From: Anaerostipes hadrus ATCC 29173 = JCM 17467
Lineage (GTDB): Bacteria > Bacillota > Clostridia > Lachnospirales > Lachnospiraceae
Length of the DNA: 64,000 nt
Assembly: GCF_030296915.1 (NCBI RefSeq)
Contig: NZ_AP028031.1
Span: 911,001 to 975,000, forward strand
Direction: 5' to 3'
Shown: one piece after another, positions 10,219 through 25,387 of the stretch
Layout: each line of letters begins with the position of its first letter
Position numbering within the stretch: the first letter of the stretch is position 1
Program-made: the position numbers and the translations under genes
Notes under the pieces: generated by a model
Seen by the model: the letters and a program-made list of their open reading frames with translations, nothing else
Databases searched by the model: none
What the model was told of the DNA's origin: nothing

Positions 10219-10237
10219 AATAACGTTAAAGGCATTG

Positions 10238-10477
10238 ATGGTGCACAGTAAGAAACCAAAAGTTTCCGAATTTCACACCGTAGCTGTATCTCTGAATGCG
10301 ATGCAACAATCATTTTCATATCATGTATCAGTAGGAGATAACGGAGTCTGCCCGTTATGCAGAGACTTAAGTGCTTATGGTAATTAAGAAGAAGTTTAAC
10401 GATACCATAGGAATTAGGGTGGTACCGCGAGTATATATTAAGAACTCGTCCCTTTGCGGACGGGTTCTTTTTCTTTT
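10238..10477 (+). promoter_or_regulatory. T-box riboswitch (tRNA-Phe), with very short Stem I
   Basis: Regulates pheST by sensing uncharged tRNA-Phe. The T-box core TGGTACCGCG is at 10420-10429. The terminator pairs 10440-10451 with 10458-10469 (12 bp, one G-U), followed by T-rich sequence. Upstream, ATGGTG (10238-10243) pairs with CACCGT (10276-10281), enclosing an AGTA box (10247-10250), a 5-bp hairpin GAAAC/GTTTC and a loop GAATTTCA. In that loop the Phe codon TTC (10272-10274) followed by A is a good specifier. A hairpin ATAACGG/CCGTTAT lies near 10340-10357, and TATGGTA/TACCATA just before the antiterminator. The specifier stem is only ~44 nt, far shorter than the canonical Stem I. Confidence 0.88.
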
Positions 10478-11623: not shown

Positions 11624-14044
11624 ATGGATACACCAATTTCATGGATCAAAGCTTATGTGCCTGATCTTGATTGCACACCACAGGAATATGCAGATAAAAT
11701 GACATTATCTGGTTCCAACATGGAAAGTGTCACATATTTAGATAAAAACTTAGAAAAGATCGTAGTCGGAAAGATTGAGAAGATCGAAAAACATCCAGAC
11801 GCAGACAAACTGATCATCTGTCAGGTGAATGTTGGAGATGAAACAGTTCAGATCGTAACAGGAGCACCAAACGTATCAGAAGGAGACTTAGTACCAGTTG
11901 TCTTAGACGGTGGACGAGTTGCCGGAGGACATGACGGTGGAAAGAACCCAGAAGACGGAATTAAGATCAAAAAAGGAAAACTTCGTGGAGTAGAATCTTT
12001 TGGTATGATGTGTTCTATTGAAGAACTTGGAAGTTCCAGAGACATGTACCCAGAAGCACCGGAATATGGAATCTACATTTTCAATAAAGACGTAAAACCA
12101 GGAGATGATGCAGTTGAAGCTTTAGGACTTCGCGATGCAGTTGTCGAATTCGAGATCACATCAAACCGTGTAGACTGCTTCAGCATGATCGGTATGGCAA
12201 GAGAAGCAGCCGCTACATTTAAGAAAGACTTCTTTCCACCAGTTGTCACAAAGACTGGAAATGATGAAGATGTCAATGATTACATCAAAGTAAGAGTCGA
12301 AGACGAGGATCTTTGCCCAAGATACACAGCAAGAGTTGTAAAAAATATCAAATTAGCACCATCACCAGAATGGATGCAGAGAAGATTAGCTGCGATGGGA
12401 ATCCGCCCGATCAATAACCTGGTTGACATCACAAACTACGTGATGGAAGAATTCGGACAGCCAATGCATGCATACGATCTTGATACGATCGCAAACAAAG
12501 AGATCGTCGTACGCCGTGCAAAAGCAGGAGATAAATTCACTACATTAGATGGTGAAGAAAGAACAATGGATGAAAATGTCTTAATGATCTGTGATGGAGA
12601 AAAAGAAATTGGTATCGCAGGTATCATGGGTGGAGAAAACTCTATGGTAACAGATGATATCAAGACATTATTATTTGAAGCAGCATGCTTTGATGGAACC
12701 AATATCCGACTTTCTTCTAAGAGAATCGGTTTAAGAACCGATGCATCTGGTAAATTCGAAAAAGGATTAGACCCAGAAAATGCAATGGCAGCGATGGATC
12801 GTGCATGCCAGCTGATCGAAGAATTAGGAGCAGGAGAAGTTGTTGGAGGAGCCGTTGATGTTTATCCAAATCCAGTCAAACAGATCCGCCTTCCATTAGA
12901 AGTAGACAAGATGAATGCCCTTCTTGGAACAAATGTATCCAAAGAAGAAGTCTTAGAATATTTCGGAAGAATCGACCTTGGATATGATGAAGCAACAAAT
13001 GAAGTCATCGTACCATCCTTCCGTCAGGATCTTCACCGTATGGCAGACCTTGCAGAAGAAGTTGCAAGATTCTACGGATATGATAACATCCCAGTTACAT
13101 TACCAAACGGAGAATCCACAGCCGGTAAGAAACCATTCAAGATCCGTGTTGAAGATGTCTGCAGAAATGTAGCAGAACAGAACGGATTCTGTGGTGGAAT
13201 GACATATTCCTTCGAAAGTCCAAAAGTATTCGATAAATTATTATTAGATGAAAATGCAAAAGAACGTCAGGCAATCGAGATTTCAAACCCATTAGGAGAA
13301 GACTTCAGTATTATGAGAACAGTTTCCTTAAACGGAATGTTAACATCTCTGTCTACAAACTTAGCACACAGAAATAAAAATGTAAGATTATATGAATTTG
13401 GAAATATCTACATTCCAAAATCATTACCATTAACAGAATTACCAGATGAAAGAATGCAGATGACACTTGGAATGTACGGAGAATGTGATTTCTTCACATT
13501 AAAAGGTGTTGTAGAAGATATGCTTGATTCCTTAGGATTAGGTGGAAGATCTGAATATGCACCAACAGGTGAACATCCATTCTTACACCCAGGAAGAGCA
13601 GCAGATGTGACGATCGATGGAGAAAAAATCGCCTACATCGGACAGATTCATCCAGAAGTTATGGATAACTATAACATGAAAGGTGAAGTCTATGTAGCGG
13701 TCATTGACATGCCAACATTAGTACCGAAAGCAACCTTCGACCGCAAATACGAAGGAGTAGCCAAATTCCCAGCAATGAAACGTGACTTAAGTATGGTTAT
13801 GAAGAAAGACATCTTTGTTGGACAGCTTGAGAAGATCTTCAAAGATAAAGGTGGAAAACTTCTCGAATCCTACGAATTATTCGATGTCTACGAAGGAGAC
13901 CAGATCGAAAAAGGATATAAATCCGTAGCATACTCCTTAACATTCAGAGCAAAAGACCGTACATTAGAGGACGCAGAAGTATCTAAGATCGTTGAGAAGA
14001 TTCTTGATGAACTGAAGAAATTAGGCGTTGAATTACGTGCTTAA
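11624..14044 (+). CDS. pheT: Phenylalanyl-tRNA synthetase beta subunit
   Basis: 806-residue beta subunit. In order: B1/B2 tRNA-binding EMAP-like domain (about 40-155), B3/B4 editing domain (about 210-400, with NRVDCFSMIG before it and RAKAGDKFTTLDG inside it), B5 DNA-binding-like domain (about 410-480), inactive class II-like core, and the C-terminal ferredoxin-fold anticodon-binding domain (about 710-806, KFPAMKRDLSMV ... LTFRAKDRTL). It edits misacylated Tyr-tRNA-Phe and positions the tRNA. SD AAAGGAG precedes the ATG. Full length for the family; last gene of the T-box operon. Confidence 0.97.
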   Translation: MDTPISWIKAYVPDLDCTPQEYADKMTLSGSNMESVTYLDKNLEKIVVGKIEKIEKHPDADKLIICQVNVGDETVQIVTGAPNVSEGDLVPVVLDGGRVAGGHDGGKNPEDGIKIKKGKLRGVESFGMMCSIEELGSSRDMYPEAPEYGIYIFNKDVKPGDDAVEALGLRDAVVEFEITSNRVDCFSMIGMAREAAATFKKDFFPPVVTKTGNDEDVNDYIKVRVEDEDLCPRYTARVVKNIKLAPSPEWMQRRLAAMGIRPINNLVDITNYVMEEFGQPMHAYDLDTIANKEIVVRRAKAGDKFTTLDGEERTMDENVLMICDGEKEIGIAGIMGGENSMVTDDIKTLLFEAACFDGTNIRLSSKRIGLRTDASGKFEKGLDPENAMAAMDRACQLIEELGAGEVVGGAVDVYPNPVKQIRLPLEVDKMNALLGTNVSKEEVLEYFGRIDLGYDEATNEVIVPSFRQDLHRMADLAEEVARFYGYDNIPVTLPNGESTAGKKPFKIRVEDVCRNVAEQNGFCGGMTYSFESPKVFDKLLLDENAKERQAIEISNPLGEDFSIMRTVSLNGMLTSLSTNLAHRNKNVRLYEFGNIYIPKSLPLTELPDERMQMTLGMYGECDFFTLKGVVEDMLDSLGLGGRSEYAPTGEHPFLHPGRAADVTIDGEKIAYIGQIHPEVMDNYNMKGEVYVAVIDMPTLVPKATFDRKYEGVAKFPAMKRDLSMVMKKDIFVGQLEKIFKDKGGKLLESYELFDVYEGDQIEKGYKSVAYSLTFRAKDRTLEDAEVSKIVEKILDELKKLGVELRA

Positions 14045-15445: not shown

Positions 15446-16286
15446 GGGAATCAGAAAAACAGGAATATTTATAGCGGTTATGCTTACGGTAGTAGTCTTA
15501 ACAGGATGCCAGATTGCAAAGAAGGACGAAAGTGGACAGGCGAAGGAAGAATTATATGGAGCTTATGCAGTTGTAGGGGACAGGATACCAGACGGTAAGA
15601 TAGCTGGAGTGAAAGATAAGAAAGGATTTGTGCATTTTAAGAAAATAAAAGGATATTTTCTATATAAATATATGCCAGAAAAAGATACTGTCAGTATGGA
15701 TGGAGATCCACAGTTGACACATTTTAATTTCGTATCAAACGTTGATGGACAAATGGATGATAAAAATAATATCACATCGAAGGAAAAAGAACAAAAAGTA
15801 AAGGCAACAATGTATGTTCAAGAAACAAAAGGCATAGTAACAACAAGTCTGGGAATGATTTGTAAAAGATCAGATGGAACAGTTTATTTAAAGAATGCAG
15901 ATGGATTTATGGGATGTGCATCAGTGCAGGATTTTGGAAAAGGTCAGTCAATGACACTAAACTTTTCATCGGATGTGGGAGATAAAAAAATCAGTTATGA
16001 AGTGGAATTTAAAGCAGACCATGCAGTAAGAAAGATTCAGATTATCGAAATGAACAAAGATGATGTCAAGATCAAAAAAACAGCCTATATTTCACCTAAA
16101 ATAAAACAATACCAGATGCAAAAAGATACAGCATATGTTATTATAAATGAACAGCTGATCGGTATGAAAGGTCAAACGATCAACAGACAGAAGATACATT
16201 CAGCAAAGAAGAATTTCACATATAAATGGAAGCAGCTTGGAGATAATGGAGTATTGACACCGACAGACTTGAAGTTTAAAAAGTAA
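15438..16286 (+). CDS. Putative lipoprotein, unknown function
   Basis: 282 residues. Basic N-terminus, hydrophobic stretch and lipobox LTGC with the lipidated Cys at residue 24, so it is probably anchored to the outer face of the membrane. The mature part is Lys-rich and beta-like, with no motif I recognise. The start at 15438 has GGAGGAAG just before it, inside the HTH gene; a longer frame from 15414 lacks an SD. It is translationally coupled to the HTH gene, suggesting that membrane protein, regulator and lipoprotein act together. Confidence 0.8.
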   Translation: MSRGIRKTGIFIAVMLTVVVLTGCQIAKKDESGQAKEELYGAYAVVGDRIPDGKIAGVKDKKGFVHFKKIKGYFLYKYMPEKDTVSMDGDPQLTHFNFVSNVDGQMDDKNNITSKEKEQKVKATMYVQETKGIVTTSLGMICKRSDGTVYLKNADGFMGCASVQDFGKGQSMTLNFSSDVGDKKISYEVEFKADHAVRKIQIIEMNKDDVKIKKTAYISPKIKQYQMQKDTAYVIINEQLIGMKGQTINRQKIHSAKKNFTYKWKQLGDNGVLTPTDLKFKK

Positions 16287-16309
16287 AATCAGGAGGATAA
16301 AATTAAAAT

Positions 16310-17635
16310 ATGAAAGATAAAAGAGAATCATTTAACAGCAGGTGGGGATTTATCCTCGCCTGCATTGGTTCGGCAGTTGGTATGGGAAATATATGGATGT
16401 TTCCGACAAGGGTATCTTTGTATGGAGGGGGTTCCTTTTTGATCCCATATTTTATCTTTGTCGTTGTGATCGCATCCACTGGTGTGATCGGAGAGATGAG
16501 TTTTGGACGTGCGGCAAGGTCTGGACCGATTGATGCATTTGGGATGGTCTGTGAGAAGAAAGGAAAGAGAAAAGTCGGGGAAGGGTTAGGAATGATACCA
16601 GTTCTTGGTTCTCTTGCTATGGCAATCGGATATACAGTTGTGATGGGGTGGATCTTAAAATATGCTGTTGGAACTTTCACAGGGGCAACACTTGCACCAA
16701 AGACGATCGAAGAATTTGGTGGACGTTTTGGAACAATGGCATCTGCATTTGGAAATAACATCTGGCAGATTCTTGCTTTGATCTTATGTATGTGTATTTT
16801 GATCTTTGGTGTAGGAGCAGGGATCGAGAAAGCCAATAAGATTTTAATGCCAATTTTCTTTGCGCTGTTTGTGATCCTTGGAATCTATGTGGCATTTCAG
16901 CCAGGGGCAGCAACGGGATATCAATATATTTTCAGAGTCGATAAGGCGGCCATCTTAGATCCAAAGACATGGATCTTTGCACTAGGACAGGCCTTCTTCT
17001 CCTTATCCGTCGCAGGAAATGGAACATTGATCTATGGATCGTATTTATCCGATGAAGAAGACATCCCATCATCTGCGGCAAGAGTTGCATTTTTTGACAC
17101 GCTCGCTGCGATGCTTGCAGCACTCGTGATCATCCCAGCTATGGCAACAACTGGAGCAACACTGGATCAAGGAGGACCGGGGCTGTTATTTATCTATCTT
17201 CCAAACTTGATCAGCTCCATGCCAGGAAGTACGATCATCGCGATCATCTTTTTCGTTGCAGTGCTTTTTGCGGGAATGACATCACTGATCAATCTCTACG
17301 AAGCACCAATTGCAACCGTACAGGAAAAGCTTCATGTAGGAAGAAAGACCGCCTGCGTGATCATCGCAGTGATCGGCGTGATCGTCTCCTTATTGATCCA
17401 GGGCATCGTATCTGACTGGATGGATATCCTATCCATTTACATCTGCCCACTAGGAGCAGGACTCGCAGGAATCATGTTTTTCTGGATCGCCGGAAAGAAA
17501 TATGTAGAAACACAGATAAACAAAGGAAGAGAAACAAAATTTACAAAGATGTATTATCCAATCTGCAAATATATTTATGTACCAATTTGTATTTTGGTAT
17601 TGGTGCTTGGGATTGCGTTAGGCGGAATTGGGTGA
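16310..17635 (+). CDS. Sodium-dependent transporter, SLC6/NSS family
   Basis: 441-residue neurotransmitter:sodium symporter-family protein with 11-12 membrane segments. The N-terminal signature RWGFILACIGSAVGMGNIWMF holds the unwound TM1 substrate- and Na+-binding region. It is followed by GGGSFLIPYF, IGEMSFGR in TM2, and the TM6/TM8 regions (FALGQAFFSLSVAGNGTLIYG, AGMTSLINLYEAPIA). Bacterial members such as LeuT and MhsT import hydrophobic amino acids with Na+; that role is likely here. SD AGGAGG (16291-16296) is 13 bp from the ATG, a little far. It ends at its own terminator. Confidence 0.93.
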   Translation: MKDKRESFNSRWGFILACIGSAVGMGNIWMFPTRVSLYGGGSFLIPYFIFVVVIASTGVIGEMSFGRAARSGPIDAFGMVCEKKGKRKVGEGLGMIPVLGSLAMAIGYTVVMGWILKYAVGTFTGATLAPKTIEEFGGRFGTMASAFGNNIWQILALILCMCILIFGVGAGIEKANKILMPIFFALFVILGIYVAFQPGAATGYQYIFRVDKAAILDPKTWIFALGQAFFSLSVAGNGTLIYGSYLSDEEDIPSSAARVAFFDTLAAMLAALVIIPAMATTGATLDQGGPGLLFIYLPNLISSMPGSTIIAIIFFVAVLFAGMTSLINLYEAPIATVQEKLHVGRKTACVIIAVIGVIVSLLIQGIVSDWMDILSIYICPLGAGLAGIMFFWIAGKKYVETQINKGRETKFTKMYYPICKYIYVPICILVLVLGIALGGIG

Positions 17636-17644
17636 GGAATGAAG

Positions 17645-17680
17645 AATCGTAGTTAAGGTATATCTTGGCTGCGATTTTTT
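17645..17680 (+). terminator. Intrinsic terminator after the SLC6 gene
   Basis: AATCGTAG (17645-17652) pairs with CTGCGATT (17669-17676), with an inner AAG/CTT step and a TTTTTT tail. Confidence 0.75.
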
Positions 17681-17741
17681 CTTATATGAAAGTAAACAAA
17701 TTAAGTTCCAAGAAATCATACGAAATTGCAAGAAAAGGATA

Positions 17742-17806
17742 TTTACATTTAAGAAGATTTTTGTTATGATATAACTATCAAAGTAGAAGTATCATCGAAT
17801 ATGATA
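17742..17806 (+). promoter_or_regulatory. Promoter and dyad operators before blaI-like gene
   Basis: TTTACA (17742-17747), 17 bp, TATGAT (17765-17770). Two dyads follow or overlap: TGATA-N4-TATCA (17767-17780) over the -10/start site, and TATCAT-N5-ATGATA (17790-17806) just downstream. BlaI-family repressors bind such short dyads over their own promoters, so these are likely autoregulatory operators (inference). Confidence 0.6.
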
Positions 17807-17852
17807 TGACTATAAATATAGAATAAATAACAAAGATAAAGGGGATTTAGCT

Positions 17853-18230
17853 ATGGAATTAAAAGAATTAACAAGTGCAGAACAGGTTGTGATGAAATGT
17901 ATCTGGGATTATGGAAAGGATATGCCATTACAGCAGCTGATTGAAAATCTAAAACAAGATTACGGAAAAGATTATAAAAGAACAACGATCCGTACATTTG
18001 TCCTTCATTTAGAAGAGAAAGGATATGTGACAACATATCAGATTGGGAAATATTCTTATATTAATTATCTGATCGAAGAGCAGGATTATAAAGAACAGGA
18101 ATTGGAAAAGACAAAGAATTTCTGGTACAAAGAATCTGGATTTGATCTGGTGAAGACATTATATAAAGGAAAATTAAATGAGGGGAAACTAAAGAAACTC
18201 AAAAAGTTGTTAGAAGAAATCGATGATTGA
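17853..18230 (+). CDS. BlaI/MecI/CopY family repressor
   Basis: 125-residue winged-helix repressor. The N-terminal DNA-binding part reads ELTSAEQVVMKCIWDYGKDM, then KDYKRTTIRTFVLHLEEKGYV, the family recognition helix with its Thr-rich TTIRTF. The Lys/Glu-rich C-terminal helix region (about 85-125) is the dimerisation part and the site where, in BlaI/MecI, proteolysis relieves repression. SD AAGGGG is upstream. It is paired with an M56 metalloprotease sensor 11 bp downstream, the standard blaI-blaR1 arrangement. No beta-lactamase or penicillin-binding protein gene is nearby, so the target is probably the secreted-protein genes that follow. Confidence 0.92.
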   Translation: MELKELTSAEQVVMKCIWDYGKDMPLQQLIENLKQDYGKDYKRTTIRTFVLHLEEKGYVTTYQIGKYSYINYLIEEQDYKEQELEKTKNFWYKESGFDLVKTLYKGKLNEGKLKKLKKLLEEIDD

Positions 18231-18241
18231 CAGGAGAAGAT

Positions 18242-19621
18242 ATGATAGACATAAGAGAGATATTGGTTAGGATATTTAGTGCGATATTTTTATCCATGTG
18301 CACTGGAAGCTGTATGTTTGTTTTCTGGATGGCACTAAGAAAGTTTTTTGCAGATAAGATTCGTCCAAAAGTCTATGATTTGATATTAAAGATCATTCTA
18401 ATTGCTTACTATGTTCCGGCAGGATATCTGTTGGTAAATATTTTTTTTGATAATGGGTATGTATTTGATTTTACAGGTACTATCATCAAGGCTTTTTATG
18501 CTATATCGTTGTTCTGGCTGGCTGGAGCAATTGCAACAGTTCTGAAGTTTGGAGAACGAACTTTTCGAATTAGAAGAGAAAAAGAAAGATGCTTTCCATG
18601 CAAGATGTATGTGCAAAAGATCTTTGAAGATTGTAAAAGAGAGCTTGGAATTCGCAGATCAATAGAAGTATTACAAGGATATCGCATTCAGATTCCAATG
18701 ACAGCAGGAATATTAAAACCATGTGTGTTTTTACCTGTGGAAGATATGGAAGAAGAACAATTAAAAACGTGTATTTACCATGAACTCACACATTATAAGA
18801 AGCACGATATATTTTGGAATTATATAGCATGTCTGATGGTATGTATTCACTGGTATTGCCCATGGATCAGAACTGTATTTCGTAAGAACGATGAATGGAG
18901 CGAGGTGATCTGTGATCTATCAGCGATTGGTTATGTAGGATCAGCGAAGCGTTATTTTACAACGATTTTTGAGATGAGTCAGAAAAGTCAGGGAATCAAA
19001 GCATATCGGGCAGCATGTCTGTTTGAAAGCCGAGATAGTTTAGAACAAAGAATCTACTATGCAATGATGTATCGAAAACAAAAGAAGATAAAATATGCTG
19101 CGGTGATTGCAATGACCGTGATATTTTGTGGAATGAGTGTAACCAGTATTTTGGCTGCAAGTAAGGGATATCAAAAGGCGTATACAAAATGGGTACAAGA
19201 AACGGAAGTAGAAATAGAAGAACCAGATGATGAGGAAGAGGAGAGAATATCGTATGAAGAAAAAACGGGAGTTTTGGGAAATGATAAGAGTGAAACGATA
19301 AAGAAGATAAATTTTAAAAAGATGGATGCGATGACATTGGAGACTTATGTAAAGGCAGGAAAAAGGCTTCGATATAAAGGATTAACTCCGAAACGAAATG
19401 AAAATATAGAAATTTTTATAACAAGTCAAAAAAATTTTAAGGGGATAAAAGTTGGGATTATTGATTCACAGAATAGGATTAGATACATACAGGACAGAGG
19501 GAGAGATTTAGTTGAACATAGATTTAAGATAGAAAAAGAGGGGAAATATGATGTGTTTATTGAAATGGAGGATAAGAAAGATGTAAAAATTGTTGGAATG
19601 ATTAATATTGATGATGATTAA
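18242..19621 (+). CDS. BlaR1/M56 family metalloprotease sensor with unusual outer domain
   Basis: 459-residue membrane protein. Four hydrophobic segments (about 8-30, 45-70, 80-100 and 286-305) frame a cytoplasmic gluzincin domain with zinc motif H180-E-L-T-H184 and a likely third ligand in SEVICD (E221). In BlaR1/MecR1 this domain cleaves the partner repressor after an outside signal. The extracellular part (306-459) is not a penicillin-binding domain. It has an acidic linker (about 320-336) and then a ~90-residue beta-rich domain whose pattern (KVGIIDSQNRIRYIQ ... HRFKIEKEGKYDVFI) recurs in the next gene's product. The ATG at 18242 has AGGAG at 18232-18236; the TTG at 18227 is upstream of this SD. 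Confidence 0.88.
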   Translation: MIDIREILVRIFSAIFLSMCTGSCMFVFWMALRKFFADKIRPKVYDLILKIILIAYYVPAGYLLVNIFFDNGYVFDFTGTIIKAFYAISLFWLAGAIATVLKFGERTFRIRREKERCFPCKMYVQKIFEDCKRELGIRRSIEVLQGYRIQIPMTAGILKPCVFLPVEDMEEEQLKTCIYHELTHYKKHDIFWNYIACLMVCIHWYCPWIRTVFRKNDEWSEVICDLSAIGYVGSAKRYFTTIFEMSQKSQGIKAYRAACLFESRDSLEQRIYYAMMYRKQKKIKYAAVIAMTVIFCGMSVTSILAASKGYQKAYTKWVQETEVEIEEPDDEEEERISYEEKTGVLGNDKSETIKKINFKKMDAMTLETYVKAGKRLRYKGLTPKRNENIEIFITSQKNFKGIKVGIIDSQNRIRYIQDRGRDLVEHRFKIEKEGKYDVFIEMEDKKDVKIVGMINIDDD

Positions 19622-19649
19622 AGAGATGGAGGAATAGGAGGAGAAAACG

Positions 19650-20096
19650 ATGATAAAATATATAAAAATAATGGTAACAGTATTTACACTTTTAATTAGT
19701 TGTTCAGTGACAAATATATTTGCAAGTGATACGAATGATGTTATAGAAGAAAAGATAGATATATCAGAAAATATTATTGATGAAGTTGGAGAGGAAGACT
19801 TTGAACTGTTGTCTAATTCGATAACAGTTAATTGGACAGTGAAAAATGGAGTTAGAAAGAAAACTAAAGAATTTTATAAAAAGAAAGGAAGTAGTATCAA
19901 TATTAGGTTACAGATAGCTCCAAAAACAAAAAGTGTCAAAGTAGGATATTTAGATGCAGATAAAGTAAAACATTATAAAACTGTTAAAGCAGAAATCAAT
20001 CACAATTTTATAATACAAAAAACAGGATATATAGAGGTGTTTGTTGAAAATAGTAGTGGAAAAACTGTAACGGCAAGTGGAACTTATACTAAGTAA
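19650..20096 (+). CDS. Small secreted protein sharing the M56 sensor's outer domain
   Basis: 148 residues. A signal peptide (about 1-25, cleaved near IFA-SD) and an acidic stretch (28-55) precede a beta-rich domain (about 57-146). The segment KVGYLDADKVKHYK ... HNFIIQKTGYIEVFV aligns by eye with KVGIIDSQNRIRYIQ ... HRFKIEKEGKYDVFI in the M56 sensor encoded upstream. No known family name. SD AGGAGG is upstream. Possible roles are ligand, decoy or co-receptor for the sensor, or an immunity-type partner of the helveticin-like protein; the sequence does not choose among them. Confidence 0.75.
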   Translation: MIKYIKIMVTVFTLLISCSVTNIFASDTNDVIEEKIDISENIIDEVGEEDFELLSNSITVNWTVKNGVRKKTKEFYKKKGSSINIRLQIAPKTKSVKVGYLDADKVKHYKTVKAEINHNFIIQKTGYIEVFVENSSGKTVTASGTYTK

Positions 20097-20151
20097 TATT
20101 TTATTTATAAATGTATTTTATAAGAGGTGATGCAATATGAACAATTAAAAA

Positions 20152-20219
20152 ATCCATGTAATACGAATGGCTGCCACCTACCTATCTGTAATATATACAG
20201 ATAGCTGTATCACATGGAT
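20152..20219 (+). repeat. Long imperfect hairpin before the helveticin-like gene
   Basis: Outer arms ATCCATGTAATAC (20152-20164) and GTATCACATGGAT (20207-20219) pair with one mismatch. Inner arms CTATCTGTA (20182-20190) and TACAGATAG (20196-20204) pair perfectly around a 5-nt loop. No T run follows, so it is not a clear terminator. It may be a processing site or mRNA-stabilising structure within the intergenic region. Just upstream a strong SD (AGAGGTGA) precedes ATG-AAC-AAT-TAA, a three-codon frame or the remnant of a gene start. Confidence 0.7.
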
Positions 20220-20273
20220 ACAATAATGATAGCAGAAAATGAGGGAAAATAAAAGAATGAAAGGAAAAAGTTT

Positions 20274-21431
20274 ATGAAATTAAAACAATTTGTATGTAAA
20301 GCAGCAAGTATTGCAATGTGTGCTATGATTATTGGAACAACTGTAGTTTCAGTGAATGTTAAGGCAGATACGAAAGCAACAGAAAGTACAGTAGCACTAG
20401 ATACACATGATGACGATGGTGTTGCGGGTATTTTGGAACAAGATGATTTTGATACACTAGAAGAATATCAGAAATATTTAGAGACACACCCAAAAGTACA
20501 GACACGGCAAAGTCGTGTATCAGCGAATAAAAATGTAAAAGCAGCAGCTACTTTAAGATATAAAATTAAAGGATTAACAAATACAGCTGCAATTCAAAAA
20601 ACATATATTGGATCTACATATATTTATGTGATTCAGAGAATTGGCTCAGACTCACGTTTATCAAGATGTTTGATTAATGGGTCAACAGCTACATATCAAG
20701 ATCATATGACATTAAAAAACTTTGGTCATGGACAGACTTTGGAATGGTTTGAACATAATTCTAAAGCATATTTCTGGGTTACATGTAAAGCAAATGAAGC
20801 GTATAAATTTAAATGGGGAACTCAAATTGGAAGAATACAATATAAAGCTAAAGGAAGTGTAGATTATACAGAAATCCCAAGATTTTCTCATATGAGTTAT
20901 GCAAATAAAAGTGGGACATCGATTGGAGAAGTGAAACGTGTAGATGCAGCATTGTCTAGTGATAGGAAAAAAGTATTTTTCTGGGTAATGGATAATACAG
21001 GAGAAATTCAATATAGTTTTTATAATGCGGAAAAATTAAATGCTGAATTGGATAAAAAAGAATCTGAAGAATCTAAATTTGTTCCATGTACATCAAGTGC
21101 AGTAAAATCAGCTTGTTATGGATCGTTTAGACAATCTGGAAGTAATCGTGTATTACCGAATGATTCATGTCAGGGATTAGAATTTTCTGATGGAGATTCT
21201 ATTTATATTATTGGAGGTGCTGCCGGACAAAAACCGGGAATAGCAAAGTTAACAGGAAGTGGATCAAGTTATAAATATTCTTGCCTTGTTACAGCTACAC
21301 ATAATAATTTTGGAGGTAATGCGGAATCTGAAGGAATTCAATTAAAGGGAGATTACGTATATTTCGGGATTAGTGATAAACAAAGTAGCGATAAAGCCTG
21401 TATTTATTCTATTCCAAAAAGTGCGTTTTAA
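20274..21431 (+). CDS. Helveticin-J-like secreted protein (possible class III bacteriocin)
   Basis: 385 residues. The signal peptide spans about 1-31 (hydrophobic AASIAMCAMIIGTTVVSV, cleaved after VKA), and the 32-95 region is acidic then basic, perhaps a propeptide. The C-terminal ~290 residues show the order of motifs I associate with helveticin J: LKNFGHGQTLEWF, KAYFWVTCKAN, WGTQIGRIQY, IGEVKRVDAALS and a run of beta-strand pairs, consistent with a propeller-like fold. Helveticin J is a large heat-labile lactobacillus bacteriocin. Bacteriolytic activity here is inferred from resemblance. It lies downstream of the BlaI/M56 pair and the small secreted protein, suggesting signal-controlled production. 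Confidence 0.68.
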   Translation: MKLKQFVCKAASIAMCAMIIGTTVVSVNVKADTKATESTVALDTHDDDGVAGILEQDDFDTLEEYQKYLETHPKVQTRQSRVSANKNVKAAATLRYKIKGLTNTAAIQKTYIGSTYIYVIQRIGSDSRLSRCLINGSTATYQDHMTLKNFGHGQTLEWFEHNSKAYFWVTCKANEAYKFKWGTQIGRIQYKAKGSVDYTEIPRFSHMSYANKSGTSIGEVKRVDAALSSDRKKVFFWVMDNTGEIQYSFYNAEKLNAELDKKESEESKFVPCTSSAVKSACYGSFRQSGSNRVLPNDSCQGLEFSDGDSIYIIGGAAGQKPGIAKLTGSGSSYKYSCLVTATHNNFGGNAESEGIQLKGDYVYFGISDKQSSDKACIYSIPKSAF

Positions 21432-21500
21432 TTTAAGTCTGGCTATGTTAAAATATATAATATAAACATTAATAAATTAAAATTATAAGGAGGTAGCAAG

Positions 21501-22739
21501 ATGGTAAGAAAACGTATGGTATCAACAGTCATGAGCTTAATGATGGCAGCAGCAGTACTGACGACAGTTCCAGTGACTAACAATGTAAAGGCAGCAGATA
21601 AAGAGATAACAAGTGGGGATTATACTTATGTGAAAGAAAGCAATGGAAAGACTTCCTATGCAGTGCTTACAAGCTATAGAGGAAGTGAGACAAATCTTGT
21701 CATTCCAGAAGAACTGGATGGATTACAGGTAAAAGCAATTTCACAGGGATTTGAAAAAAATCTGAAAATAAAAAGTATTATATTATCAAAAAATATTGCA
21801 CCAGCAAAAGAAACACACAGAGATTTGGAAGTGCTAAATGAAATTGAAACATTGGAAGAGATTCGTGTAGCAAAAGATAATCTGTCTTATCAGGCACAAG
21901 ATGGAGTTTTATATAGCAAAGATAAGAAACAATTGTTTAGCTATCCAAAATCTAAAAAGTCCGAAACATATAACATGCCTGCTTCTGTAAAAAAAGTAGA
22001 AGAATTCAATGCCCTAATAAATCTTAAATATTTAAAGAATCTTACATTATCAAAGAATTTATCAGTAACACCAAGCTGTAATGACAGTAGTATTGAATCT
22101 GTAACAATTCCGGGCCAGATAGGCGGTATTGATGAAAGCAGTTTTGAAAATTGCAACAAATTAAATAAAGTTACAATTACAAAAGGTCTGAGATTTATTA
22201 ATGATTATGCATTTTTTGAATGTAAAGCATTAAAAGAAATCAAACTGCCAGAAGGACTTCAAAGTATTGGAGTAGGAGTATTTTATAGAACAGGAATTAA
22301 ACAGCTGACAATCCCTGGATCTGTTGTAAAAATTGATGTAATTGACAAGAGTATAAAATTAAGTAAACCATCTTATTTGAAGAAATTCAAAAGAGACTCA
22401 GGTGCTATTTATTACGAAGCAAGAGCCACAATCAAAGCATCTGGCAAAAAAGCTGTCACATACAAAGCATCCAGAATTACAAAGATTAAAGCAAAAACAA
22501 GCAAAGTAACGATCCAAAAAGGAAAGACAACAAAACTACAGACTAGAGTATACATTTCCAAGAAACTGAAAAAAGGATACTTAGATCCAGAGATCTTAAA
22601 ATTCACAACATCCAATAAAAAAGTAGTGAAAGTATCCTCAAAAGGAACGATCAAAGGCTTGAAGAAAGGAAAAGCAACGGTCACAGTAAAACTTCGTACA
22701 ACAGGAAAGACATATAAAGTGAACGTGAAAGTAAAATAG
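21501..22739 (+). CDS. Secreted BspA-type leucine-rich-repeat protein with Ig-like domain
   Basis: 412 residues. Signal peptide (about 1-32, MMAAAVLTTVPV core). Residues 45-290 carry BspA/LRR_5-type repeats with phrases such as NLVIPEELDGLQVKAIS, ESVTIPGQIGGIDESSFENC and LKEIKLPEGLQSIGVGVF. The C-terminal ~80 residues form a bacterial Ig-like (Big_2) domain: TIQKGKTTKL ... TSNKKVVKVSSKGTIKGLKK ... ATVTVKL. Likely cell-surface or secreted and used in binding. No sortase motif was seen. SD AAGGAGG. Together with the helveticin-like gene it follows the sensor genes; a terminator ends the run. Confidence 0.85.
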   Translation: MVRKRMVSTVMSLMMAAAVLTTVPVTNNVKAADKEITSGDYTYVKESNGKTSYAVLTSYRGSETNLVIPEELDGLQVKAISQGFEKNLKIKSIILSKNIAPAKETHRDLEVLNEIETLEEIRVAKDNLSYQAQDGVLYSKDKKQLFSYPKSKKSETYNMPASVKKVEEFNALINLKYLKNLTLSKNLSVTPSCNDSSIESVTIPGQIGGIDESSFENCNKLNKVTITKGLRFINDYAFFECKALKEIKLPEGLQSIGVGVFYRTGIKQLTIPGSVVKIDVIDKSIKLSKPSYLKKFKRDSGAIYYEARATIKASGKKAVTYKASRITKIKAKTSKVTIQKGKTTKLQTRVYISKKLKKGYLDPEILKFTTSNKKVVKVSSKGTIKGLKKGKATVTVKLRTTGKTYKVNVKVK

Positions 22740-22768
22740 GAAACAATAAAGTAAAGATACATGGTAGA

Positions 22769-22808
22769 ACAGGACATTCCAGCGAAAGCAGGGATGTCCT
22801 GTGTTTTC
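22769..22808 (+). terminator. Intrinsic terminator after the LRR/Ig-like gene
   Basis: ACAGGACATTCC (22769-22780) pairs with GGGATGTCCTGT (22791-22802) around a 10-nt loop, with one G-U/mismatch step, followed by a T-rich stretch. Confidence 0.82.
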
Positions 22809-22929
22809 TTATGCAGCATTCCTTGTTATTTGCAATATCAAATGGTAGAATTAGGAATATTCAAAGTGAATCAATCTGTAATATGGAATGGAAAACAAAC
22901 TGATACAACAAAGGAGAAACGAAACAATC

Positions 22930-23601
22930 ATGCCAGGATACATTTTACATTTAACTGCTGCCCAGATGTTTCTAAAGACACAAAAAGGACAGAAATTTTT
23001 AAAGACAAAACAAGATAAAAATAATTTTCTGATCGGAAATCTTCTGCCAGATACAACAAAGATCAAAGCAAGATCCCATTTCAGAGATCCAAAATATCAC
23101 GATCGCATGATAGAATACCCGGAAACAAGCTGGTTTATCAAGAAATATAAGCATCTTCTATCAAACAGCAGTGTGGTCGGATATCTCTTTCATCTCTACA
23201 TCGATCGAAGATTTTTCAAATACTATATGCCAAGGATCGTAGAGTTTCGAAATGCACAAGATGAGAGAGAAGAAAGAAGAGATATGGTAAAAGATGTCTT
23301 ATTAAAACGGACAGGACAAAGATTATCAAAGCAGGATTTTTTCTCAGAGAAATACTACTATGGGGACTACACAAAGATGAATATGTACCTTGTAAATCGT
23401 TATCAGATTCCGACAACACTTGATCCCAATATATCAAATCCTGGGATCAAAGAAGTTGATTATGAGGATGTAAAGCAGGTGTTAAAAGAATTAAAAACAT
23501 ATATGAAAGTACCAAAAGATGCAGTAAAGAACGTGAGAGTTTTTGACGTGGAAGATCTTCTTTTCTTTTTGGAAAACGCAGTAGGTGTATTTAAAATCTA
23601 A
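22930..23601 (+). CDS. Zn-dependent phospholipase C family protein (paralogue 1)
   Basis: 223-residue protein resembling the zinc-dependent phospholipase C family. Candidate metal ligands are H7 (GYILHLTAA), D41 (GNLLPD), H50, H88 and D92 (GYLFHLYIDRRF). Such proteins in Clostridia are often of unproven activity. No signal peptide is seen; the N-terminus MPGYILH starts directly in the fold. The ATG at 22930 matches the family N-terminus and has AGGAG at 22912-22916, rather far; an upstream in-frame ATG at 22888 would add a Gln/Arg-rich leader without a good SD. A related gene lies at 51895. Confidence 0.75.
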   Translation: MPGYILHLTAAQMFLKTQKGQKFLKTKQDKNNFLIGNLLPDTTKIKARSHFRDPKYHDRMIEYPETSWFIKKYKHLLSNSSVVGYLFHLYIDRRFFKYYMPRIVEFRNAQDEREERRDMVKDVLLKRTGQRLSKQDFFSEKYYYGDYTKMNMYLVNRYQIPTTLDPNISNPGIKEVDYEDVKQVLKELKTYMKVPKDAVKNVRVFDVEDLLFFLENAVGVFKI

Positions 23602-23652
23602 GTTTGGATAACATACAAATACAGGAAATTTTTTCATTATATAACAAAAAAG

Positions 23653-23681
23653 TTGCAAATATTACAAAAATATGACATAAT
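23653..23681 (+). promoter_or_regulatory. Promoter of the sulfotransferase gene, with WalR-like box
   Basis: TTGCAA (23653-23658), 17 bp, CATAAT (23676-23681). Within it ATTACA-N5-ATGACA (23661-23677) is one base off the reverse complement of the WalR motif TGTWAH-N5-TGTWAH. A site lying between -35 and -10 would suit repression. Confidence 0.45.
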
Positions 23682-23710
23682 ACCATAGAAATAACTTTAA
23701 GGAGGACAAC

Positions 23711-25387
23711 ATGATGAAAACTGTAAAGGAAATTGTAAAGAGGGAACGTCAAAAGAGAAGAAGACGTGTGGGGATTATGATCGTATTGATCGCTTTATGT
23801 GCAACAGCAATTTTCTTTGGAACCAAAGCTTATCACAATTACAAGGAAGAGGAATTCTTCAAGAGTGTGAAAGAAAAAGAAATCAAAGTAACTCCAAAAA
23901 GCATAACGCACAAACAGACAGATATCTTTACACAAAGTTATCAAAAAGAAACGGATGATCAGTTGAAAGCATTAAAGAAAGGCAAAAATTATACTTTCAA
24001 TAAGCCCTTAATCGTCTGGAATGCATATGGAACATACACAACATCTTTGTACTATTATGCAAAAAATGATCGTGCATCTTATGCAGTATGTACTGTAGAA
24101 GCCAGCGAAGCAGGTGCGAGTCCATACAAACGTACATTGAAATCTGTATCTGGAAAGAAATATGTGACAACACATGAATATCAGATCAAAGGACTTGTTC
24201 CAGGAGCGAAGAATAAGATCACAATGCAATTCTTTAATGAAAATGGAAGAGCTGTCGGGAAAACACATTTCTACGTGACAGCACTGAAAGATGATGTCAT
24301 TCCTGCAATTCTTAAGAAGAATACAGGGACAAGCAAAGCAAAGATGAGCGATGGCCTGTTTTGCCTGTTTGGACATGATAAAGCGGATGTGTCAAACATC
24401 TATCTGTATGATAATAATGGAGTGAGCAGGGGAAGAATGCCTTTGAACAAATATCGTACAGACCGCTTTTTATTTATCAAAGGACAGCTGGTATATTCTT
24501 ATGACTATAATAAAATTGCATTTACGAATTGTATAGGAAAAGTGACAAGGACCATTGATATTGGGAATTATCAATTTCATCACGATTTCCGTTATGACAA
24601 GAAACACGATAAGATCATTTGTCTGGTAAATAATCTGGACAAAGATACGATTGAAGATACGATCGTACAGGTGGATGTAAAGACAGGAAAGACAAGTATG
24701 CTCTTTGACTGTGAAAAAATTCTGCCGTTAATGAGAAAACTGGCGATCCAGAGAAAAGGTGGTAGAAATACTTATGGAGGAACTGAACTAGACTGGATAC
24801 ACATTAATTCTTTTGATTTTCTAGATGATGGTAATAGTTTGGTCTTAAGCAGCAGAGAACAAAGTTCAATCCTTAAGATTAAAAATATTTACACAAAACC
24901 AGAATTAGACTATGTGATCCATCGTGGAACAATCTATAATGGAACAGATATTGCCAAATATCAGTTAAAACGAGAAGGAGACTTCGTTGCAAATGCAGGA
25001 CAGCATATGATCACTGTAGAATATGACGATTCCCTTCCAGAAGGACAATATTATTTATATATGTTTAATAACAACTATGGAAAGGCAACATCTATTCCAA
25101 CTTTTGACTGGAGTATGTATCCGAATGTGGGAAACTTTAAAAGTGGAACTTCTTATTACTCAAAATTTCTTGTAGATGAGAAGACAAGGACTTATAAACT
25201 TGCACAGCAATTTAGTTTGCCTTATTCGGCAATCGTAAGCAGTGTGCAGCATTTAGGGGGGAATATTCCGTTTAGTAGTGGAATGAGTAAGACATTTGGA
25301 GAGTATGATAAAGATGGAAAACTGATCAAGTCCTTTGAATATGAAGCAGATAAATATTCATATCGCGTGATGAAGTATGAATTTTAA
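23711..25387 (+). CDS. Membrane-anchored arylsulfate sulfotransferase (ASST family)
   Basis: 558 residues. A basic N-terminus and one hydrophobic segment (about 21-38) anchor it outside the cell. An N-terminal beta domain (about 60-195) precedes the propeller domain (about 205-558). The family active site is visible: H290/H291 (QFHHDFR), DWIHINS with H364, SSREQS with R382, and GQHMITVEY with H432. These match the catalytic and sulfate-binding His/Arg set known from E. coli ASST. The enzyme moves sulfate from one phenolic sulfate to another phenol without PAPS. SD AAGGAGG; two adjacent ATG codons (23711, 23714) are both possible starts. In a gut anaerobe this could act on dietary or host phenols (inference). 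Confidence 0.88.
   Translation: MMKTVKEIVKRERQKRRRRVGIMIVLIALCATAIFFGTKAYHNYKEEEFFKSVKEKEIKVTPKSITHKQTDIFTQSYQKETDDQLKALKKGKNYTFNKPLIVWNAYGTYTTSLYYYAKNDRASYAVCTVEASEAGASPYKRTLKSVSGKKYVTTHEYQIKGLVPGAKNKITMQFFNENGRAVGKTHFYVTALKDDVIPAILKKNTGTSKAKMSDGLFCLFGHDKADVSNIYLYDNNGVSRGRMPLNKYRTDRFLFIKGQLVYSYDYNKIAFTNCIGKVTRTIDIGNYQFHHDFRYDKKHDKIICLVNNLDKDTIEDTIVQVDVKTGKTSMLFDCEKILPLMRKLAIQRKGGRNTYGGTELDWIHINSFDFLDDGNSLVLSSREQSSILKIKNIYTKPELDYVIHRGTIYNGTDIAKYQLKREGDFVANAGQHMITVEYDDSLPEGQYYLYMFNNNYGKATSIPTFDWSMYPNVGNFKSGTSYYSKFLVDEKTRTYKLAQQFSLPYSAIVSSVQHLGGNIPFSSGMSKTFGEYDKDGKLIKSFEYEADKYSYRVMKYEF

Follow-up and report, generated by a model that had tools for sequence, protein, structure and literature searches.

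Here we describe a putative BlaI/M56-controlled operon of Anaerostipes hadrus, found at bases 911001-975000 of a genome that forms a single contig of 2.80 Mb; this stretch of 64,000 nucleotides is hereafter called the window. A BlaI-type repressor and an M56 membrane zinc protease are followed by a small secreted protein, a helveticin-J-like protein and a leucine-rich repeat (LRR) protein. We hold it about evenly balanced whether the locus is one operon whose protease relay gates exported antagonism or surface proteins, aided by a soluble copy of the sensor ectodomain and by a leader RNA. The observations that carry this reading are the gene order, the homology between sensor domain and free protein, the conserved structure and linkage of an element in front of the helveticin-like gene, and the predicted export of the outputs. 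All five open reading frames (ORFs) named in an earlier sequence-only reading are present on the + strand, in the order BlaI, M56, small secreted, helveticin-like and LRR/immunoglobulin (Ig)-like protein. The features of the locus are:

17742-17770, + strand: promoter-like site TTTACA-17-TATGAT with an extended -10 (TG), 5′ of BlaI; a consensus match alone
17790-17806, no strand assigned: candidate BlaI operator, the dyad TATCAT-N5-ATGATA, between the promoter-like site and BlaI; putative
17853-18230, + strand: BlaI-type repressor (Penicillinase_R, Pfam 57.7 bits, cut-off 22.6, residues 6-122)
18227-19621, + strand: M56 BlaR1-type membrane zinc protease (Peptidase_M56 PF05569, 99.4 bits, cut-off 31)
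19298-19597, + strand: sensor ectodomain (approximately residues 358-457 of the M56 protein), after the fourth hydrophobic segment; placed by sequence comparison
19650-20096, + strand: small secreted protein with a signal-like N-terminal segment, a free copy of the sensor ectodomain
20122-20148, + strand: Shine-Dalgarno (SD)-like GAGGTG and mini-ORF ATG AAC AAT TAA (20137-20148), directly 5′ of the hairpin; permissive rule
20147-20223, + strand: structured leader element with a long outer stem and an inner hairpin; covariation, no Rfam match
20274-21431, + strand: helveticin-J-like secreted protein (Helveticin_J 38.2 bits, cut-off 25.5, best stretch residues 142-268)
21501-22739, + strand: secreted BspA-type LRR protein (LRR_5 79.6 bits, cut-off 27.7; Big_2 32.6 bits, cut-off 22.8)
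22769-22806, + strand: intrinsic terminator, the proposed operon end, a long stem followed by T-rich sequence (scan core 22788-22802)

The M56 gene begins with TTG and overlaps the BlaI ORF by 4 bases. At its threshold, the promoter scan listed no promoter-like site in the gaps 20097-20273 or 21432-21500, which was counted in favour of a single operon. A terminator scan of 16000-24500 gave 5 matches against 3.2 in shuffles, so single matches carry little weight; within the five genes it matched on the + strand inside the M56 gene (18416-18434) and on the - strand inside the helveticin gene. The run of genes first proposed to extend to 22769 does end at a terminator there, and requires one correction: the 177-base gap before the helveticin gene contains a conserved structured element.

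The M56 protein has four hydrophobic segments, with HELTH at residue 185, and H185, E186 and H189 are invariant in 10/10 aligned sequences. The claim that the sensor has no penicillin-binding domain was borne out, as it matches M56 at 99.4 bits and no penicillin-binding or transpeptidase Pfam family. Against blaR1_generic it scores 102.4 bits (cut-off 400) over residues 93-309, and a sequence search of solved structures with the M56 protein returned 0 matches. Its ectodomain, predicted to be a small beta-sandwich, is homologous to the secreted product of the next gene (29% identity over 91 residues, E 8e-7), a relationship also retrieved by searching the organism's own genome; the secreted protein itself gave nothing above Pfam cut-offs. 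The layout of BlaI, M56 and free copy, hereafter a cassette, is found at two more sites in this genome, one of them with a stop codon interrupting the free copy, and in another 6 genomes of the genus. As proposed in the sequence-only reading, the sensor's C-terminus was surveyed more widely; counting the present genome, 41 of 397 family genomes have this tail domain, on ORFs of M56 size or free-copy size. Forty stretches were retrieved, holding 45 of the 68 listed tail-domain places outside this genome; they contain 35 tail-type M56 genes, 23 of them with BlaI directly upstream. The genome encodes seven M56 genes in all, several beside exported proteins or transporters of unassigned role. The best-scoring of these (L008, 7330-8922) has no recognised BlaI neighbour and a different C-terminal region.

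The products encoded behind the cassettes differ. In the window they are the helveticin-like and LRR proteins, and in three genomes they are RHS proteins of approximately 2,400 residues (two of the three were scanned, with RHS_repeat at 119.6 and 138.1 bits). Elsewhere in Anaerostipes the outputs include a DUF6345 protein (38.7 bits) and several secreted proteins, small ones among them, of which one is accompanied by an ATP-binding cassette (ABC) transporter. To the genus sensors we added those of other genera, giving a set of 49 in which the truncated sensor of L009 is not counted and two tandem L088 sensors share one downstream gene. A first downstream gene besides the free copy was present for 37 of the 49. 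Its start was signal-peptide-like in 19/37 compared with 33/430 background ORFs by a rough home-made rule, and it carried other membrane segments in 4/37 compared with 106/430. The Fisher p value, 1e-10, overstates the significance, as close relatives among the rows are not independent and the rule is home-made. ABC ATPases occur in 11/49 chains of up to six genes; among single background ORFs their share is 1.9%. At six loci of other genera (L191, L195, L197, L202, L210, L223) a tail-type M56 is followed by a secreted protein, by further proteins that are secreted or membrane-bound, and by an ABC ATPase; the small protein at L197 has a peptidoglycan-binding domain (39.6 bits).

Elsewhere in the genome (L011 5699-10859, G000:C1 ~442700-447860) is a BlaI/M56 pair of a second type, accompanied by a secreted protein that is small and W-rich; pairs of similar appearance are present in L012, L094 and L095. 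The L011 pair precedes a 148-residue secreted protein, a lactococcin-972-type membrane protein and an ABC ATPase. The likeness to lactococcin-972 operons lies in the TIGR03608-like ATPase (254.7 bits, cut-off 254.85) and the TIGR01654-like membrane protein (133 bits, cut-off 189.35), both under their cut-offs, one only just; L011 is, moreover, not the window locus.

The outputs could instead be proteins of the cell's own surface, the propeller of the helveticin-like protein binding the cell's own wall glycopolymer, the LRR/Ig protein acting as an adhesin and the relay reporting envelope stress or wall state. We regard this as possible and rather doubtful; the RHS proteins behind sister cassettes, and the lactococcin-972-type ABC genes behind the other type of pair in this genome, both point to antagonism. 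A fuller version of the antagonism reading is similarly tentative: that the locus is a self-contained sense-and-respond module for interbacterial antagonism, in which the ectodomain also acts as a soluble decoy or co-receptor and a new leader RNA labels interchangeable exported effectors (helveticin, RHS, amidase-like and small bacteriocin-like proteins).

A profile search bore out the suggested family of the protein at 20274, which matches Helveticin_J (PF17312) at 38.2 bits against a cut-off of 25.5. The protein has 126 homologues; 120 were listed, and PF17312 is present in all of these except P0155. The source records give several of them the name helveticin J family class III bacteriocin. 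Ten of the 120 are LRR_5-helveticin fusions, combining helveticin with BspA-type LRR in 626-672 residues (P0113, P0115, P0116, P0119, P0120, P0123, P0128, P0130, P0148, P0150). The modelled protein is predicted to form a beta-propeller from approximately residue 86, and the model resembles the receptor-binding propellers of staphylococcal phages (phi11, 80alpha, P68) at 11-14% identity. The bacteriolysin-like role suggested for it earlier is thus unproven, the fold being that of phage receptor-binding propellers. The protein had no match in 50,697 phage records; a plasmid search gave matches in 10 records, none covering 80%, and a sequence search of solved structures gave 5 chance-like rows (E 0.03 to 0.07). 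Helveticin is found once in this genome, in 5/11 genus genomes and in 4/397 genomes of the wider family, and the genes of G401 and G402 are broken. A further 31 named helveticin loci came from an alignment-based contig scan, a single-protein scan having given none. Three of these, L125, L097 and L100, are records of G401, G405 and G404 and are not independent of the genus set. The LRR protein follows helveticin in 5/5 genus genomes with helveticin (as a remnant in G402) and in 8/31 named loci, one behind a helveticin remnant; these eight are named Anaerostipes, Lachnospiraceae, Eubacterium or Eubacteriaceae.

For the free ectodomain protein, fold comparison also allows an immunity or inhibitor protein with a fold like the lysozyme inhibitor PliG. 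We consider this unlikely. GOLD (10.2) and PPC (~8) score nearly alike with the PliG-like fold, the sequence homology of the free copy is to the sensor's own domain, and the free copy accompanies unrelated outputs.

The element before the helveticin gene was found by comparing intergenic regions 3′ of the cassettes, where it follows the free copy (or BlaI) and precedes the output gene. When 13 copies were aligned with plain MAFFT, the two helices had 90.5% of their cells paired and 8/19 pairs changed on both sides, compared with 3.9 in shuffles. Slid controls drop to 20-44% paired cells, a contrast flattered somewhat by the structure having been drawn from the same sequences. The first nine copies gave 91.2% paired and 7 pairs changed on both sides. 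A model built from nine copies and run over 11 Anaerostipes genomes gave 13 matches at E <1e-10 in 7/11 genomes, 9 of which are the model copies and match by construction. The four outside the model are in G404 C60, G403 C20, G405 C27 (a near copy of that of G404) and G402 C1:243565. Four genus genomes without a tail-type sensor gave no match better than E 0.04; weak matches (E 0.001 to 0.7) also occur in genus genomes with cassettes. The window element has no Rfam match at gathering level, and at a lax threshold two matches fall far under their cut-offs (24.7 vs 100; 23.6 vs 44).

Eleven of the 13 elements lie 3′ of a cassette. The genus has 15 tail-type sensors: all 11 that come with a free copy have the element, and the 4 that lack the free copy do not have it (L009, G404 C12:4697, G405 C27:105964, G399 515521). 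In G402 the twelfth element separates an orphan BlaI from helveticin (L039). With the copy of another genus described below (G176) included, a permissive rule, applied with no chance control, placed a start codon after an SD-like stretch in 10 of 14 copies; in 9 of these it lies no more than 15 bases from the element. The mini-ORFs span two to 28 codons. A conserved leader peptide across the hairpin was rejected, as frames differ and starts are absent in several copies, and so structure rather than peptide looks conserved. In the 397 family genomes, scanned with stricter filters and 12 candidates scored per genome, four had an element match at E 0.01, one being this genome. The match in G176 looks real (L158 8852-8918, with SD and mini-ORF); it precedes a 139-residue protein and Amidase_6 (86.3 bits), with a recombinase-like ORF upstream by eye. 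Those in G166 and G297 were set aside, as by eye they resemble intrinsic terminators.

Several observations weigh against a single relay-controlled unit. Conservation of the M56-helveticin pairing did not hold: the two are paired in this genome alone among the five genus genomes with helveticin. In G404 and G405 a divergent LytTR/GHKL system flanks helveticin, and no BlaI was found in the stretch retrieved. BlaI adjoins helveticin in 1/31 named loci (A. hominis), looking up to 8 kb each side. The closest genus relatives of the window M56 (G404 C12:4697 and G405 C27:105964, 41%) precede an ABC transporter, not helveticin. No perfect dyad was seen in common when the BlaI upstream regions of the cassettes were scanned, and an operator shared by the cassette BlaI genes was rejected on this account. 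Outside the genus, the free copy is directly downstream of 3/35 tail-type sensors by a narrow distance rule; 7 more of the 40 stretches have a free-size copy elsewhere or without a recognised tail-type M56 (L201, L206, L213, L219, L224, L227, L230). Neither those 40 stretches, taken from around the tail domains in other genera, nor the helveticin loci of G401, G404 and G405 yielded the element. Lastly, the thirteenth element (L153, G402 C1:243565) has neither BlaI nor M56 in the 15 kb retrieved and lies approximately 97 bases 3′ of its own 12-of-12 promoter match; the element is therefore not strictly part of the BlaI relay. Two proteins are encoded behind this copy: one matches Peptidase_C92 (41.9 bits), and the other is secreted and shares 34% identity across 325 residues with the one behind the L010 cassette. 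The element accompanies the exported gene at least as much as the relay.

Nevertheless, BlaI stands directly upstream of helveticin in 3/5 genus genomes with helveticin (the window, G401, G402). In a tree of 20 BlaI proteins, the window BlaI groups with G404 C12a and G405 C27a, not with the orphan BlaI proteins of G401 and G402, and a single clade of the three helveticin-linked BlaI proteins was rejected (approximately unbiased test, p-AU 1.7e-5, for a group chosen with the tree in view). BlaI would therefore have come before helveticin more than once, or have been exchanged, and either course favours a functional link. Taken together, the proposal that the relay switches on an exported bacteriolysin-like protein gains from the family match, the recurrence of the tail domain, the export bias (19/37) and the BlaI adjacency (3/5); it loses from the M56 pairing (1/5) and the named loci (BlaI in 1/31), and lysis itself is a putative activity. 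The LRR protein is a more constant partner of helveticin than BlaI is. In two Anaerostipes metagenome-assembled genomes (L038 6666-10116, L040 3792-6902) the divergent LytTR response regulator and GHKL kinase flank helveticin; 5′ of the L038 helveticin are, by eye, an SD, a mini-ORF and a different hairpin.

That helveticin and LRR protein form a separate unit, adjacent to the regulatory cassette by chance, is improbable: the M56-helveticin linkage seen in this genome only and the other helveticin neighbours elsewhere speak for it, but BlaI genes of separate lineages stand before helveticin, the element lies between BlaI and helveticin both here and in G402, and no promoter-like site or terminator is listed in the gap before helveticin. 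We give as little credence to the hairpin being a DNA site, either an operator or a recombination site for swapping outputs behind regulators, rather than RNA; its palindromic outer stem, the different output genes behind it and the one copy away from BlaI would fit, but its orientation matches that of the downstream gene in 13/13 genus copies, the inner hairpin covaries, and the L153 copy would lie inside a 5′ leader if its promoter is real.

Under the single-operon reading, BlaI would in the off state repress the promoter before its own gene, as its family suggests. The M56 protein would read an extracellular or envelope signal with its ectodomain, a small beta-sandwich, and its cytosolic zinc site may then, by analogy with BlaR1, remove BlaI. 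Transcription would cover the sensor, the free copy, the leader RNA and the helveticin and LRR genes before stopping at the 22769 terminator. The most likely role of the free secreted copy is to compete for the sensor's ligand or to pair with the sensor, setting a threshold or feedback. The leader RNA, with its SD and mini-ORF, may tune stability or translation of the exported gene apart from the regulators, as a separate brake or stabiliser. Judging by fold and family, the output, a propeller of wall- or receptor-binding type with its LRR partner, would act at cell surfaces, probably in competition.

The known membrane topology of BlaR1 served for comparison with the window M56 protein. As in BlaI/BlaR1 and MecI/MecR1, the ORFs of a BlaI-type repressor and an M56 membrane zinc protease overlap; in the protease, HExxH lies between hydrophobic segments three and four, and segment four is followed by a C-terminal domain. 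Unlike BlaR1 and MecR1, the outer domain is approximately 100 residues and not penicillin-binding, a free secreted copy lies 3′ of the sensor, and the genes behind encode exported proteins, not a beta-lactamase. The helveticin-like protein shares with the helveticin J class III bacteriocins a PF17312 match above cut-off, but has a signal-like N-terminus and an LRR_5/Big_2 partner, and its bacteriocin role is putative; compared with the staphylococcal phage propellers, it is a free secreted bacterial protein. Within the literature covered, which leaves out most subscription papers and was available in part, we found no account of BlaI/M56 used in this way. In the excerpts of two papers retrieved for 'lactococcin 972' and BlaI (PMC12345188, PMC13289728), the BlaI matches are author names. 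Plasmids of C. difficile carry BlaR1/BlaI whose target, in the portion of the source available, is not established (PMC6807378). The protease relay is of a known kind; new are the sensor domain with its soluble twin, the exported outputs and the RNA.

Elsewhere in the window, a T-box leader (10226-10456, 96.2 bits) is the only gathering-level Rfam match, and lies 5′ of a gene at 11624 that we take to be phenylalanyl-tRNA synthetase beta-like. Shortly past the operon, 23711-25387 encodes an Arylsulfotransferase (ASST) family protein (174.8 bits) with an N-terminal Ig-like domain.

BlaI/M56 pairs are usually named regulators of beta-lactam resistance. This locus offers an alternative role for them, and adds a new candidate leader RNA as well as a specific sensor domain with a soluble counterpart. 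If true, many unexplained BlaI/M56 annotations could be reread, and the relay would explain when gut commensals release exported competition proteins. The same arrangement before other exported proteins in related bacteria suggests a way to trigger competition weapons.

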